NCBI RefSeq assembly: GCF_004137855.1 | Contig: NZ_QBKB01000002.1 | Coordinates: 1,522,750-1,586,749, forward strand | DNA: 64,000 nucleotides | Reading direction: 5' to 3' | Source of the DNA: Methanohalophilus profundi | GTDB lineage: Archaea; Halobacteriota; Methanosarcinia; Methanosarcinales; Methanosarcinaceae | Shown: positions 55,407 through 62,822 of the stretch, piece after piece | How positions within the stretch are numbered: the first letter of the stretch is position 1 | Layout: the number at the start of each line of letters is the position of its first letter | The notes under the pieces: generated by a model | The model's input: only the letters and a program-made list of their open reading frames with translations | Database searches by the model: none | Told to the model about the DNA's origin: nothing | Position numbers and translations under genes: made by a program

Positions 55407-55991
55407 TTAATCCTCCTGTATGCCCAGAGCCAAAAAATTTTCAATAATTTTCAAACCATCACTCATCAGTACCGATTCAGGATGGAACTGGATGCCATAG
55501 ATAGAATATTCTTTATGTTTAATCGCCATTATTGATCCATCTTCTGTATGGGCAATGGATTCCAGGGCCGGGGCAAGTTCTTTAATTTCCAGTGAATGGT
55601 ACCTTCCTCCTTCAAAAGGATTGGCAAATCCCGCAAAAAGAAGCGAATCACTGTGAATTATTGATGAAGCCTTGCCATGGACTGAGCCATTTGTACATCT
55701 GCCGGTACTGCCTCCGTAAGCCCGGTTTATAGCCTGATGACCAAGGCAAACTCCCAGTATAGGGGTATTTGGACCGTATTCCTTAATAATTTGGAGGCAG
55801 TTGCCGATATCCTCGGGTCTTTCAGGGATGCCCGGGCCGGGTGATATGACAATGGCATCTGGTTTTATATTTCTGACCTCTTCCATTTCCACTGTATTTG
55901 GAACAACTACGGTTTCAACACCCAATACGGAAAAGGCATCCACAAGGTTCCATACAAAGGAATCCCGGTTATTGACAAACAGTACTTTCAT
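55407..55991 (-). CDS. trpG: Anthranilate synthase glutamine amidotransferase subunit
   Basis: 194 residues from ATG 55991 with GAGGTGA upstream. The glutaminase triad shows GVCLGHQAI (Cys), YSIYGIQFHPES (His, Glu). It supplies ammonia to TrpE. The start overlaps the trpE stop region. Confidence 0.94.
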   Translation of the reverse strand: MKVLFVNNRDSFVWNLVDAFSVLGVETVVVPNTVEMEEVRNIKPDAIVISPGPGIPERPEDIGNCLQIIKEYGPNTPILGVCLGHQAINRAYGGSTGRCTNGSVHGKASSIIHSDSLLFAGFANPFEGGRYHSLEIKELAPALESIAHTEDGSIMAIKHKEYSIYGIQFHPESVLMSDGLKIIENFLALGIQED

Positions 55992-55992
55992 A

Positions 55993-57559
55993 TCATTCAC
56001 CTCTCACCGCTTTGAGCATGGCAGCCATTTTGCGCTCGGTTTCCTCGTATTCCTTCGAAGGCACTGAATCTGCAACTATACCGGCACCTGCCTGTATCAT
56101 TACATGTCCCTCTCTCATAACAACTGTACGTATTGCAATTGCAAAGTCCGCATCCCCGTTCCAGGAAAAGTAACCTATCCCTCCGCCGTAGACACCCCTG
56201 CCGACTCCTTCAAGTTGTCTAATGATCTCCATTGCCCGTATTTTGGGCGCACCGGAAAGGGTTCCTGCAGGAAGAAGTGCCTTGATTGCATCGAACTGGT
56301 CGCATTTAGGTCTTAATTTACCTTCCACTGTACTTTCAATATGCTGTACATGAGAATAACGTACCACTTTCATGAAATCGGATACTTTTACAGAGCCACC
56401 TTCACAGACCATGCGTACATCGTTGCGGGACAGATCAACAAGCATCACATGTTCTGCCCTTTCTTTTTCGTCCTGGAGCATTGTTTCGGCATAGTTGCAA
56501 TCTTCAGTTTCGTTTTCACCCCTGGGACATGTCCCTGCGATAGGATTGGTGATCACACGCCCATTATCCACAGTCATCAGGGTTTCAGGACTTGCACCCA
56601 CCACGGCCATATCCTTAAACGAAAGCAAGTACATGTAAGGACTCGGGTTAATAGAGCGTAGTTTCCTGTAAAGGTAAAGAGGGCTATTTTGGTAGGGTAG
56701 CTCATAGCGCCGTGAAAGGACTACCTGGAAAATATCACCATCCAGAATATGTTCCTTTGCCTTGCTTACTGCATCTTCATATTCTGCCCGCTCCATTGTG
56801 CAGGAAATATCCTCATTCTTCGCACTTCCCGCTGATTCATTTTCCTTTATCAATGATGATCGGTTAAGTACTACCTGCATGCTGCGGGCTTCTTCAAGTA
56901 CATCATCATAGACCTGTGCTGCATTTGAAGAACTTGCAAGTGGAGTTTTTACGTAATAAGTCCTTTTTTTCAAGATGGTCAAAAACAAAGGTACTAGTAG
57001 TGAACATAAACTGCATGTCCGCTTCCTTTGACCCTGCTGGAACTTCCTGTTTCAACCAGCAATCATAGATAATGTCATATCCAGCATATCCCATTGCCCC
57101 ACCCAGGAAAGTCTGCCTGTCAAATCTATTTGCATTGAGAAGAGGCAGTGAATCATCGGCCACAAATACTTTCCTGAGGCCGTCTAATACTTCATATCCT
57201 GTTTTTATGGTTCCTTCAAAATGACAGGATCTGGATTCAAGAGAATCGCAGACATTTCCCAGTCTTTTTTCCATCAAATCTGTCAGGGCTGATTCATGTG
57301 ACATTGTCAGGCAAACACGTCTGCCCTTCACGGAAAGTAAGGCAAGGGGATCTGCGCCTACAAAAGAAAAACGTGCGTGTCTGCTCTCTTTTTCTACAGA
57401 TTCCAGAATATAGGAGTAATCAAAATGATTCTCCAGAAGAGTGTAGAGGTCAAGTGGGGAAAGGGACGTTTGCACCTCGGCTACCAGCTGTACAAGGGCC
57501 GGACTGTCCTCTCTATTTACAAGTGAAATGAACTCATCTCTTCCAATATCAAATTCCAT
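55993..57559 (-). pseudogene. trpE: Anthranilate synthase component I, frameshifted in this sequence
   Basis: From ATG 57559 the N-terminal part runs to FVFDHLEKK. The frame continues RTYYVKTPLASSSNAAQVYD if T7 at 56964-56970 becomes T8. The C-terminal half has the chorismate-binding motifs DGDIFQVVLSRR, ITNPIAGTCPRG, LVDLSRNDV, LLPAGTLSGAPKIRAMEII and GGGIGYFSWNGDADFAIAIR. The repaired length is about 523 residues. Confidence 0.93.
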
Positions 57560-58220
57560 CAATTACTACACCTCACAGCTCCTATAAAATCACAAACAAG
57601 ATTCAAATCTTTTTTACCTTTCACTTCAACCCCGGAGGAAACATCCACTCCATAGGGGGATACAATGTCCACACATTCGCCCACATTTTTTGGGTTTAGG
57701 CCTCCTGCCACAATCAATGGAACAGGGATGTTTTTGCCACTTCGCCACTTATCTTCCAGTCATGGGTCAGGCCACTACCTCCGCCGCTTCTACAGGCAGT
57801 ATCCAGAATTACTGCATCAATCAGCTTACATTCTGCAAGTTCATTGATGATTTTAATAGTTTCAAGGACCTTTGTTTCATCAGAAATTGAAAATTTCTGG
57901 ATTATCCGGACATGCATTGGCTGCAGTGCAGTGAGTAATCCTCTGTCAGCAGTGGAATGTACCTGCACCATGTCCGGTCTTGCATTACTTACAAGTTTCT
58001 TGGCATGTGCAATCGATTCTGGCATTATTACCATGACCGTAGTGACAAAAGGAGGAGTGGCTTTTATAAGTTCAGTGCTTAATTCCATATCCAGATTGCG
58101 AGGCGTATCCACCGGCACTTCTGTTATAAAACCTACTGCATCAGCACCACACTTTACTGCAATACCTATATCATCCACAGACTTCATTCCGCAGATTTTC
58201 ACCCTTATGGCAGGTTGCAT
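57559..58220 (-). pseudogene. trpF: Phosphoribosylanthranilate isomerase, frameshifted in this sequence
   Basis: ATG 58220 opens MQPAIRVKICGMKSVDDIGI, with the catalytic Cys in KICGMK. The frame breaks at GEVAK near T5 57731-57735. With one base added it continues [36 protein letters not shown] and ends at TGA 57559-57561, overlapping the trpE ATG. The repaired length is about 220 residues. The start is inside the 3' end of trpD. Confidence 0.9.
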
Positions 58221-59232
58221 TTGATCCCCTGGAATTTGTAAAATGTGCAAGTTCTTCGAGCTTTTCAAGAGCTTTGCCATTGTCGATTACCTTTTCAGCA
58301 ATTCTTGCGGCTTCATTAAGAGACGGGGCTTTGTCTGCAACATAGATAGCAGCGGCAGCGTTAGCCACCACTATATCCCTTTTGGGTCCCTTTTCACCCT
58401 GCAGGATATAACGTATGTCCGTTGCATTCTCTTCAGGAGTCCCGCCTACAATATCTGGTGCAGATGCCCTTTTAAAACCAAGGTCTTCAGGCTTAATCTC
58501 ATAGGTAGTGATTACTCCGTCCTTTAGTTCTGCTACATAGGTTTCCGAGAGGGTGGAGATTTCATCCATCCCGTCACCATGGACCACCAGTACTCTTTCT
58601 TTGCCAAGTTTTTTGAGGACTTGCGCAAAGGGTTTACAGAGGGATTTATCGTATACACCAACTACCTGTCTGGAAGCAAGTGTCGGATTAGAGAGAGGGC
58701 CCAGCAAATTAAAAATTGAACGGAATCCAAGTTCTTTCCTGATCGGCGCAACCCTCTTCATGGCAGGATGGAAATATGGCGCAAAGAGAAAACCGATTCC
58801 TACGGACTCCATACATTTTTTCACTTCTGCCGGAGAACAGTTCAGGTCAATACCGAGAGATTCAAGCACATCGGCACTTCCTGAAAGAGACGTTACGGCA
58901 CGGTTTCCGTGTTTTGCGATTGACACATCCGCAGCTGCAGCTATAATGGCTGCGGATGTGGAAATGTTGATTGTGTTATGACGATCTCCTCCCGTTCCTA
59001 CAATATCTACAAGCGGGCCGGCAATTGCAGGTTTTATTATGACAGCCTCATCAAGCATTCCTTCTACAAAACCACTTATTTCTTCCACACTTTCCCCTTT
59101 GACTCTTAAAGCCCCGAGAAAAGCTCCTATCTGGGCATCCGTTGCTTCCTGTAGGATATATTTCAGAGTTTTCTTTGCTTCAGTAGCAGTCAGGTCTTCT
59201 CCGTTTACTATTTTGTGCAGGCACCGTTGCAT
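58171..59232 (-). CDS. trpD: Anthranilate phosphoribosyltransferase
   Basis: 353 residues. LVDIVGTGGDRHNTINISTS is the PRPP-binding motif, then SIAKHGNRAVTSLSGSADVL, MKRVAPIRKELGFRSIFNLLGP and VVHGDGMDEIS. It is the first gene of trpD-F-E-G. The last 50 bases overlap trpF, and the tail NSRGSNATCHKGENL does not look like a family ending. The start has GGTGA upstream. Confidence 0.94.
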   Translation of the reverse strand: MQRCLHKIVNGEDLTATEAKKTLKYILQEATDAQIGAFLGALRVKGESVEEISGFVEGMLDEAVIIKPAIAGPLVDIVGTGGDRHNTINISTSAAIIAAAADVSIAKHGNRAVTSLSGSADVLESLGIDLNCSPAEVKKCMESVGIGFLFAPYFHPAMKRVAPIRKELGFRSIFNLLGPLSNPTLASRQVVGVYDKSLCKPFAQVLKKLGKERVLVVHGDGMDEISTLSETYVAELKDGVITTYEIKPEDLGFKRASAPDIVGGTPEENATDIRYILQGEKGPKRDIVVANAAAAIYVADKAPSLNEAARIAEKVIDNGKALEKLEELAHFTNSRGSNATCHKGENLRNEVCG

Positions 59233-59259
59233 GTAATCACCATACTCAATGTATCAAGT

Positions 59260-59300
59260 TGTACAATTATGTACAGGTATTCCATAGTATAAATATATAC
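59260..59300 (-). promoter_or_regulatory. trp operon promoter with two TGTACA boxes
   Basis: Reading toward trpD, a TATA box (TATATTTATA, about 59288-59297) is followed by two TGTACA hexamers at 59270-59275 and 59260-59265, 10 bases apart, at the expected transcription start. TGTACA is the TRP box bound by TrpY in Methanothermobacter. No trpY-like gene is in the window. Confidence 0.6.
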
Positions 59301-59363: not shown

Positions 59364-60431
59364 GTGAGAGATTATAATTCTGAATTTTCCATAAAGGCAG
59401 GAATGGACCCTGGCACACTGATTCATGTTGGGGATAAAAAGGTGAAAGAACCTGAACTGACATTGATAGAGTACAATGAGGATACTCTGGAAGTACGTGT
59501 CAGCCAGAGCATCGACATAATTAAAGATCTGGAATTTGCAGAAGACAGGAAAATATGGATCAATGTAGATGGTTTGCACCAAACAGAATTAATTGAAATT
59601 CTTGGGAAATTATTTGGGGTTCACCCCCTTGTGCTGGAAGATATTCTGAATACCACGCAGCGGCCCAAAACCGAATCCTATGACGATTATATCTATGTTA
59701 CAATTAGGACTCTGTTTTACGAACGTCTGGAAAAAACAGTCGACTCAGACCAGATAAGCATAATACTGGGAAATAATTTCATTCTCTCATTTCAGGAAAT
59801 GGGGACTGATTTATTCAAGCAGATCAGACAGAGAATGGAAAGACCTGCAGTCAACATTCGTAAAAGGGGAGTGGATTACCTCACCTATTCCCTCATAGAT
59901 TCGATTGTGGATAATTATTACCTGCTTCTGGAAGACATCGGAGATGAAATTGAGAGGCTGGAAGATGAACTAATAAAAGAGCCATCTCCTTCAACCCTGC
60001 AAAGTATCCATGGGCTTAAAAGGGAAATGATCATTTTACGCAGGTCCCTCTGGCCACTCAGGGAAATAATTGCATCCCTGCAACGAGATGAATCCGGTTT
60101 AATCAGGGAAAGCACTGGCATATATCTGCGTGATCTCTATGACCACTCGATACAGGTCATCGAAACCGTGGAAACTTACAGGGAAATGTTATCCGGCATG
60201 CTGGACCTTTATCTCTCAACGGTTAGTAACCGGATGAATGAAGTGATGAAGGTACTGACAATAATTGCTACTATCTTTATCCCTCTTACTTTTATTGTAG
60301 GTATCTATGGAATGAACTTCGAGTACATGCCCGAATTGAAATGGGAATGGGGTTATCCTGCAGTTATGATTTTTATGGCCTCTATATCTGTGATTATGCT
60401 GTATTATTTCAAAAAGAAGACCTGGCTGTAA
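59364..60431 (+). CDS. corA: CorA magnesium/metal channel
   Basis: 355 residues from GTG 59364 with GAGGAG upstream. It has a large cytoplasmic alpha/beta funnel (HPLVLEDILNTTQRPKTESYDDY) and two C-terminal helices (IIATIFIPLTFIVGIYGMNF, AVMIFMASISVIMLYYF). YGMNFEYMPEL is the GMN selectivity motif. Positive residues end the tail (FKKKTWL). Confidence 0.95.
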   Translation: MRDYNSEFSIKAGMDPGTLIHVGDKKVKEPELTLIEYNEDTLEVRVSQSIDIIKDLEFAEDRKIWINVDGLHQTELIEILGKLFGVHPLVLEDILNTTQRPKTESYDDYIYVTIRTLFYERLEKTVDSDQISIILGNNFILSFQEMGTDLFKQIRQRMERPAVNIRKRGVDYLTYSLIDSIVDNYYLLLEDIGDEIERLEDELIKEPSPSTLQSIHGLKREMIILRRSLWPLREIIASLQRDESGLIRESTGIYLRDLYDHSIQVIETVETYREMLSGMLDLYLSTVSNRMNEVMKVLTIIATIFIPLTFIVGIYGMNFEYMPELKWEWGYPAVMIFMASISVIMLYYFKKKTWL

Positions 60432-60512: not shown

Positions 60513-62822
60513 TTGAAAAAATTTTATTACCATGCAGATGGGGTATTTAGCATAAAGTGGGCAAACATAAATCTTGAAACCAAGCTGATTCTTCTGATTA
60601 CAATCGGAACTGTAATTGTTTTACTTGGTACTACGCTGGCAATCACTTCTACTGTGACGGATCCGGAAAGGGAACTTGCATACGACAAATCGATCAAGAC
60701 TGCAGAAACTTATGCCAGTCAGTTCAATACGGATATGCAATCAAGTATGACCATTGCGCGTACCCTTGCTAGCAGCCTGGAAAAATACGATACAAGGAAC
60801 CGGACTGAAGCCAATGCTATGCTGGAATAAATACTGCGGGATAATCCAGAGTTAATCGGTACCTATGTCTGTTTTGAACCAAATGCCTTCGACGGGATGG
60901 GTAGAAAATATATAAACACAACCGGCCACGACGAAACCGGTCGCTTCATTCCTTACTGGAATACAATTGGGGGCGAGGTGAAACTCGATCCAATTGTAGA
61001 TTACCAGACTTTCTCCTACTACCAGTTGCCCAAAAAGCTGGAAAAAGACGTGGTTACCGAACCTTACCTGTACGAAGGAGCATTGATTGTCAGTTTTGTC
61101 TCACCAATAATGAAAGAAGGAAACTTTCAGGGAATTGCTGGTGTGGATGTTTCTTTGAATTATATTGATGAAATTGTCAGTGATATAGAAATATTCGATA
61201 CAGGTTATGCTACTGTGGTGAGCAGGACAGGAATCCTGATGTCCCATCCCACTGAAAAGGAATGGATCGGCCACAAATCATTGAACTCATTTGATATACC
61301 AAATATACAAAAACTAAAAGTAGACATATTTTATGGGCGAAGTGGCCATATCGAAACCCTTGATCCCATCACCGGAAAAGAAGTAATTATGTTCTATGAA
61401 CCTGTAGATACGGGCAAATTCTCTTTTCTGTTGGTTGTCCCTAAAAAAGAAATGCTTGCAGGAGTAATTGCACTCCAAAAACAACTTGCAGGTATTTCCT
61501 TTGTAGCTATCTGTTTCATGGGGGGAGGGGCATTATTAATAGCCCGCTCCATAACAAAGCCAATAAAACGAATCGTTGGCAATTTCAATAAGATATCGGA
61601 TAAAGCCATCGAAGGGAAACTGGACACACGGGCAAATACAGATGTAGACATTGATTTCCGGAAAATTCCGGAAGGGTTAAACAGCATACTTGATGCCCTT
61701 GAGGAATCAAGTGCTTCTATCCAGGAAATGAGAGAAGTGATAAACAGCAGTCCGGCTATTGTTTTCAAATGGAAAGCTACACCCAGCTGGCCGGTAGAAC
61801 TGGTGTCCGATAACATCAATTTGCTGGGATATTCAGCAGAAGAATTTGATTCAGGCCATCTGTGGTATGGTGACATAGTACATCCACAAGACCTCGACAG
61901 GGTTCAGAAAAATCTTGATAAACAGATGGCAGAAAGACAGAATAATTTCACACAGGAGTATCGTGTAGTCACCAAATCCGGGGAAATCAAGTGGGTTGAT
62001 GAAAGGACACTCATTAAGAGAGATACAAAAGGTAACATAAAATATCTGCAGGGAATCATTCTTGACATCACTGAAAAGAAGGAAGCTGAGAAAGCAATCA
62101 TAGAAGCAAAAATGATGGCAGAAGCGGCAAACCAGACCAAAAGCCAGTTTCTGGCTAATATGAGCCATGAATTGCGTACGCCCCTAAACTCTATTATAGG
62201 TTTCTCAGATGTGCTGCTGGAGGGGGCTTTTGGAAAACTAAATGAAAAGCAAAAAAAATATGCTCATAATATAAACACCAGTGGTAGACATCTTCTTGAA
62301 ATCATCAATGATATACTGGACCTTTCCAAAATTGAAGCTGGAAAAATGGAATTAAAACCTGAACGATTCGGACTCGAAGAGATAATTTCCGAATTGAAAA
62401 ACACAATGGAACCTCTTGTCAAAAAGAAACAGCTAATTTTGGATGTAGATACCAGTTTGGAATATCCTGTTTATGCGGACAAGCTGAAGATCAAGCAGGT
62501 GCTATATAATTTACTTAGCAATGCAATCAAGTTTACACCTGAAAAAGGAAAGATCACGATTGACATTGATTACGGGAATGAAGATATCACTATTAGTGTA
62601 TCTGATAGCGGGATTGGTATTCCTCCAGAAGAACAGGACAAACTTTTCAAACCCTTCGAGCAACTTGATTCTGATTCCAACCGGCAATATCAGGGAACAG
62701 GCCTGGGATTGGCTCTGGTAAAGAATATTGTAGAGATGCACGGTGGTCAGCTATGGGTTGAAAGTGAAGCCGGAAGGTGGTCCACCTTCAAGTTCACCCT
62801 TCCCCAACAAAATGGCTTTTAA
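60513..62822 (+). pseudogene. Membrane sensor histidine kinase (Cache-HAMP-PAS), in-frame TAA
   Basis: The frame from TTG 60513 carries one stop, TAA 60828-60830, then continues without a shift ([20 protein letters not shown]) to 62822. This looks like a CAA-to-TAA type substitution in the extracellular Cache domain. Helix 1 is LILLITIGTVIVLLGTTLAI; helix 2 [19 protein letters not shown] leads to HAMP, then PAS ([16 protein letters not shown]). HisKA has [17 protein letters not shown] and HATPase has [15 protein letters not shown] and GTGLGLAL. A receiver gene begins at 63927. Confidence 0.88.

Follow-up and report, generated by a model that had tools for sequence, protein, structure and literature searches.

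Phased TRP-box-type sites before trpDFEG in Methanohalophilus profundi form a conserved pair that is probably the operator of a TrpY-family protein

One known tryptophan switch of the archaea is that of Methanothermobacter, in which the regulator TrpY blocks TBP at the TATA box and for which trpB2 is reportedly a second target. We take TGTACA to be the consensus of the TRP boxes of this organism. Binding of TrpY to the TRP boxes represses the trp genes with tryptophan, the promoter regions of trpY and trpE overlap, and trpY is autoregulated, according to the account given in PMC6737238. The same account describes TkTrpY (TK1227) of Thermococcus kodakarensis, which is 42% identical to Methanothermobacter TrpY and belongs to the same family by the authors' comparison; TkTrpY is reported neither to bind trp promoters specifically nor to affect trp-dependent growth, and the trp operon of that organism is activated by Tar instead (PMC6737238). 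Membership of the TrpY family thus does not fix function. The branches of the family with methanogen, haloarchaeal and Archaeoglobaceae members are presented in that account as unexamined and their function as not estimable (PMC6737238). Our literature search found no report of TGTACA or TRP boxes in the Methanosarcinaceae, and it covered sources other than the original Methanothermobacter studies, which might mention other archaea.

The DNA analysed here (the window) is a stretch of 64,000 nucleotides from Methanohalophilus profundi, and its trp locus is laid out in Table 1. A sequence-only reading of this stretch had pointed to TGTACA at 59260 and 59270, just after a TATA box. Both boxes are confirmed, and the description holds in the direction of trp transcription, in which the minus strand reads TATATATTTATA (59299-59288), TGTACA, TAAT, TGTACA, ACTT and GATACA before the ATG of trpD at 59232. 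The same reading had proposed a compact operator of two boxes; the pair itself stands, and the count of two does not, as a degenerate third box is found here and three boxes are found in many relatives. In the aligned promoters the third box is better matched elsewhere, as AGTACA in genome G032 and as TGTACA in G001, and it is frequent and closer to the consensus in many relatives, again at a 10-bp step. Archaeal transcription generally starts about 24 bp from the centre of the TATA element, and the start site of trpD is predicted to lie in or beside box 1. The locus differs from that of Methanothermobacter in the placing of its boxes, which here lie downstream of the TATA element, whereas in Methanothermobacter TrpY acts on TBP at the TATA box itself.

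Table 1. Coordinates of the trp promoter elements and genes within the window.
Feature	Position	Strand	Basis
TRP box 1, TGTACA, closest to the TATA box	59270..59275	-	sequence; kept in relatives
TRP box 2, TGTACA, 10 bp (one helical turn) from box 1	59260..59265	-	sequence; spacer of 4 fixed in relatives
Degenerate third box, GATACA (2 mismatches), again at a 10-bp step	59250..59255	-	sequence
TATA element TATATATTTATA of the trpD promoter	59288..59299	-	sequence; T/A-rich element upstream of the boxes in aligned promoters
trpD, anthranilate phosphoribosyltransferase, first gene of the operon	58171..59232	-	TIGR01245, 426 bits, cut-off 199
trpF, frameshifted in the assembly	57714..58280	-	two matching pieces, model positions 1-142 and 145-191
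trpE, two overlapping frames	55993..57562	-	PF04715 (N-terminal domain) in 56906-57562; PF00425 (chorismate-binding) in 55993-56988
trpG, glutamine amidotransferase subunit	55407..56000	-	PF00117

The naming of the operon as trpDFEG holds for the identity of all four genes, with the correction that trpF and trpE are frameshifted in the assembly. Among the 59 of 60 genomes of the class that have a trpF match, this genome is the only one in which the match is split. The breaks in trpE and trpF are probably assembly errors or else the mark of a strain that is losing tryptophan synthesis, and they leave the promoter untouched. Elsewhere in the window, a sensor histidine kinase (60513-60830 and 60897-62822) is apparently broken into two frames as well, which fits indel errors in the assembly.

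Single TGTACA hexamers are common in the window (24 copies against a mean of 13.6 in 100 shuffles), and this abundance speaks for regarding the pair as an accident, or as a palindromic structure in the leader RNA instead of a protein site. The perfect pair TGTACA-N4-TGTACA is a different matter: the window has one copy and the whole genome of 1,830,088 bp has two, against 0.083 expected from the frequency of the single box. The reversed control pattern is absent from the whole genome. In simulated Markov sequences of 131 bp, the perfect pair appeared in 27 of 200,000 when the composition was that of the trpD intergenic region, and in 2 of 200,000 when it was that of the window. Both perfect pairs of the genome lie directly upstream of a gene for aromatic amino acid synthesis.

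The relatives bear on the question of chance as well. Of 111 Methanosarcinaceae genomes searched, 96 have a trpD match, and for 92 of these we scored the DNA before trpD over a length of up to 200 bp; G002, G075 and G104 (contig end or broken match) and also G097 were left out. A pair with at most one mismatch is present in 56 of the 92 upstream regions, always 22-37 bp before the trpD start, and each of 23 control palindromes of equal composition scored 0 of 92 at one mismatch; at two mismatches, TGTACA reaches 59 of 92 against 21 of 92 for the best control. The regions that miss at one mismatch come from 26 Methanosarcina-like genomes (g13), four genomes of g5 and two of g4, from G067, which has no usable DNA upstream of trpD, and from G003, G030 and G058, whose pairs carry two mismatches. 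Among the 32 genomes of g13, g5 and g4, the nine that were read have trpD directly behind a trpA-like frame (judged by eye), an arrangement in which trpD is not expected to have a promoter of its own.

With g13, g5, g4 and G067 set aside, the boxes highlighted by the sequence-only reading prove to be conserved in relatives: all 59 usable trpD promoters, from nine genera, have the pair with at most two mismatches, and 56 of them with at most one, although the genomes of the family are related and these counts are not independent events. When spacers of 0 to 20 were scored at up to one mismatch, a spacer of 4 was found in 56 of the 59 promoters and a spacer of 14 in 15, and no other spacer in more than two; the spacer of 14 corresponds to an additional box at the next helical turn. 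The 59 promoters carry 1.0-2.0 bits of information in the box columns and 0.6-0.9 bits in the spacer columns, where the bases vary freely. Set against the two pairs seen in this genome where 0.08 are expected, the conservation at every usable promoter and the lack of enrichment for spacers other than 4 and 14, chance as the origin of the pair is refuted, and an accident or an RNA structure together retain a vanishingly small probability.

The pair also moves with the order of the operon, standing before trpC where trpC leads. In g13 and g5, 12 genomes with a leading trpC were scored, and in all of them the pair lies 13 or 23 bp upstream of the trpC ATG; it has no more than one mismatch in five, two in five and three in two (G079 and G102). 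In g10, a perfect pair lies 24 bp before the trpC ATG in seven genomes, and the trpD genes of the same group have the pair at no more than one mismatch in 26 of 27 cases and at two mismatches in the remaining one. All 19 aligned trpC leaders thus place the pair at 13 or 23-24 bp from the ATG; the trpC of G003, which has perfect boxes, was missed by the trpC parser, and the leader of G005 is unscored. The leading trpC encodes indole-3-glycerol phosphate synthase, as checked with PF00218 for one example (L508). An operon led by trpD here and by trpC elsewhere in the family sets these archaea apart from Methanothermobacter thermautotrophicus, where the order is trpEGCFBAD.

Perfect pairs number 61 across the 111 family genomes, against 17 for the reversed control (hand tally). 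Thirty-one of the 61 stand at the starts of genes, namely trpD (16), trpC (8), the paralogue of ADTH synthase described below (4) and trpB2 (3), and 30 lie elsewhere; in this tally trpC was assigned by eye from the N-terminal sequence, with Pfam confirmation for L021. Two family genomes have perfect TGTACA pairs within CRISPR-like arrays (L009 and L014, around 1501), presumably by chance. The extra sites with one mismatch in five genomes of Methanohalophilus fall inside genes or near nothing relevant.

Comparison across genera also bears on whether the boxes belong to the trp operon at all. The gene corA diverges from it on the plus strand, starting at 59364, at a distance of 88 bp from the boxes, close enough for one to suppose that the boxes serve corA and are near trpD by accident. 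Other genera nevertheless keep the pair at a fixed distance from trpD or trpC despite a different divergent neighbour (for example G001 (L003) and L068), and this comparison largely refutes a role at corA, which we regard as very improbable.

The second perfect pair of the genome lies 11 bp before the ATG of an ADTH-synthase-type gene (C2:444081; TIGR01949, 377 bits, cut-off 299). Most genomes of the family have two ADTH-synthase-type paralogues (L001:1528-2319 and L503:3367-4161). In the 49 genomes examined, out of 110 with a match, the box-bearing paralogue has the pair in six of eight Methanohalophilus genomes and in none of the 41 others; this set is less clean, with the control palindrome ACATGT scoring 4 of 49 at one mismatch. 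The other paralogue also meets TIGR01949 and, as read in G033, adjoins a 3-dehydroquinate synthase II gene and aroD- and aroE-like genes (the aro names given by eye), and its upstream regions showed no pair with two or fewer mismatches in the six scored of seven read. We had considered the second site as proof of a regulon of trp and aro genes, and this idea is narrowed to boxes at one paralogue in six of eight Methanohalophilus genomes. A gain at one ADTH-synthase paralogue within the genus is the likely explanation, rather than a general aromatic regulon. Like Tar of Thermococcus, the boxes would coordinate aromatic amino acid genes in an archaeon; Tar, however, is a different protein and an activator, and the boxes here are confined to trp genes and this one aldolase paralogue (six genomes).

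A TrpY homologue, which the sequence-only reading had supposed for this lineage, is present in one copy above the curated cut-off. This single TrpY-family protein (C2:557041-557529, 167 aa) scores 228.7-229.4 bits against NCBIfam NF053754 (cut-off 180) over model positions 1-163 of 163; the model is named 'TrpY family transcription regulator' and is of type 'subfamily', not 'equivalog'. Across the phylum, 286 of 295 genomes encode a single member of the family, and 281 of these members exceed the cut-off. In an alignment of sixteen members, DRR in the N-terminal half and RQ in the C-terminal half are invariant. The C-terminal part gives a weak ACT match of 18.7 bits, below the Pfam cut-off of 27, and searches of the protein found neither a Pfam helix-turn-helix domain nor a relative in the PDB. 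Generic helix-turn-helix models (PF12802 and PF13384) and regulator genes that bear boxes were also tried as a route to TrpY, and they yielded no candidate linked to the boxes.

Unlike its Methanothermobacter counterpart, trpY is here unlinked to the trp operon and not divergent from it, lying about 1 Mb away (C2:557041, against C2:1580923-1581981 for trpD), and its upstream region in this genome has no paired boxes. Within 250 bp upstream, paired boxes with at most two mismatches were found at none of the 36 TrpY loci parsed (39 tried; some start codons are misplaced). Within the genus, the gene for EPSP synthase (aroA) ends two reading frames from trpY (L322:2007-3463), a possible functional link. 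The two intervening frames form one unbroken gene in G034 (L323) and are apparently frameshifted here.

Sites of this type are far more widespread than the one methanogen group in which they were worked out. Arrays of three boxes at 10-bp steps, with at most one mismatch, occur in 17 of 295 phylum genomes, against 0 of 295 for the control. They occupy 18 places, of which 14 precede trpE (4), trpB2 (2), trpC (1), trpD (4) or the ADTH-synthase paralogue (3), and four do not (L061, L062, L067 and L077). All 17 genomes have a TrpY-family member, a co-occurrence that is uninformative because 97% of the phylum has one.

A wider scan for TGTACA-N4-TRTAYA-N4-TGTACA, with one genome per species, returned at least 120 stretches, 18 archaeal and 102 bacterial by title. 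Among the matches listed, the motif adjoins a trp gene in 11 of the 18 archaeal stretches (trpB2 in seven, trpE in two and trpD in two) and in none of the 102 bacterial ones. The hosts of these 11, again among the matches listed, are a Methanoregula, a member of the Methanoregulaceae, one of the Methanomicrobiaceae, another of the Methanomicrobiales, two Methanosarcinaceae, an ANME-2 archaeon, three Methanomassiliicoccaceae and a Thorarchaeote; three of the stretches (L133, L190 and L196) are the same sites as those of G321, G270 and G001 in the phylum scan. Boxes at trpB2 recur in other lineages (L031, L066, L098, L130 and others), as in Methanothermobacter. The Thorarchaeote has a perfect three-box array (L078, around 357-382) that lies at least 220 bp from trpB2 and is a weaker case. 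In two genomes with boxes at trpB2 the TrpY-family protein falls below the cut-off, at about 158 bits in the Thorarchaeote and 132 bits in one of the Methanomassiliicoccaceae. Five of the at least 120 stretches come from a single Desulfobacteraceae assembly, MAG bin_101 (L081, L111, L150, L154 and L179); one of them holds three copies of the motif at intervals of 30 bp, and this is some kind of repeat without a link to trp.

In the Methanomicrobiales, the middle box is often TATA-like (TGTACA-TATA-TATACA), so that the array covers a TATA-like element, at trpE in L063, L064, L065 and L068 and at trpB2 in L066 and L069. The array of the Methanosarcinaceae, by contrast, lies downstream of the TATA element. 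This difference in position suggests that one and the same operator can block transcription in a second way.

The boxes with their constant spacing and position, the conservation of these boxes at the leading genes of trp operons, and the presence of a TrpY-family protein support the earlier suggestion that the boxes correspond to TRP boxes and that TrpY-type control acts in this lineage. We consider it highly probable that they are the conserved operator of trpDFEG, bound by the genome's TrpY-family protein, which would repress at the start site with tryptophan. Binding by TrpY, tryptophan as the signal and repression at the start site are proposed by analogy with Methanothermobacter. The 10-bp step suggests that TrpY dimers take adjacent positions along one face of the helix, with one box to each turn. 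Bound in this way, TrpY would lie between the TATA box and the start codon, on the start site and not on the TATA box. Abundant tryptophan may bind the ACT-like C-terminal part of TrpY; the protein would then spread along the array, and transcription complexes or RNA polymerase would be unable to start. With little tryptophan, trpDFEG would be on.

It is also conceivable, and in our judgement unlikely, that the boxes are a true trp operator used by another regulator (for example of Lrp, MarR or ArsR type) and that TrpY has a different role. The precedent of T. kodakarensis lends this idea some force, since TkTrpY, a protein of the same family, is reported not to control trp there, and Tar does so (PMC6737238). 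TrpY is, moreover, so nearly universal in the phylum that it could have another job, and the genome encodes further winged-helix proteins. Against another regulator stand the seven of 18 archaeal stretches, among the matches listed, in which the same boxes precede trpB2, reportedly a TrpY target in Methanothermobacter, and no helix-turn-helix candidate that we examined is tied to the boxes. To our knowledge, no regulator other than TrpY has been described that uses TGTACA boxes at trp genes of archaea. We therefore keep to TrpY as the probable binder of the boxes.

The wider distribution invites a more tentative proposal, which we hold to be plausible but short of probable. TrpY with phased TRP-box arrays may be an old and widespread tryptophan switch of archaea that dates back to, or nearly to, the ancestor of the Halobacteriota and is also present in Methanomassiliicoccaceae and Thorarchaeota. 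Its operator may have moved among trpE, trpB2, trpC and trpD, and recently to the ADTH-synthase paralogue, as operons were rearranged, and may have moved relative to the TATA box as well. One protein might then exclude TBP in some lineages and block access to the start site in others.

The finding is well supported as an extension of the known TrpY/TRP box system, with TGTACA boxes at the trp promoter and a TrpY-family protein as its shared parts (the box consensus being the one that we assume for Methanothermobacter), rather than as a system of a new kind. For very few repressors of archaea have both the sites and the signals been identified. The conserved operator gives the unexamined TrpY homologues a concrete, testable job in the genetically tractable Methanosarcina. 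It also yields natural variants of the operator as a clean set, and an example of one operator placed differently with respect to the TATA box.
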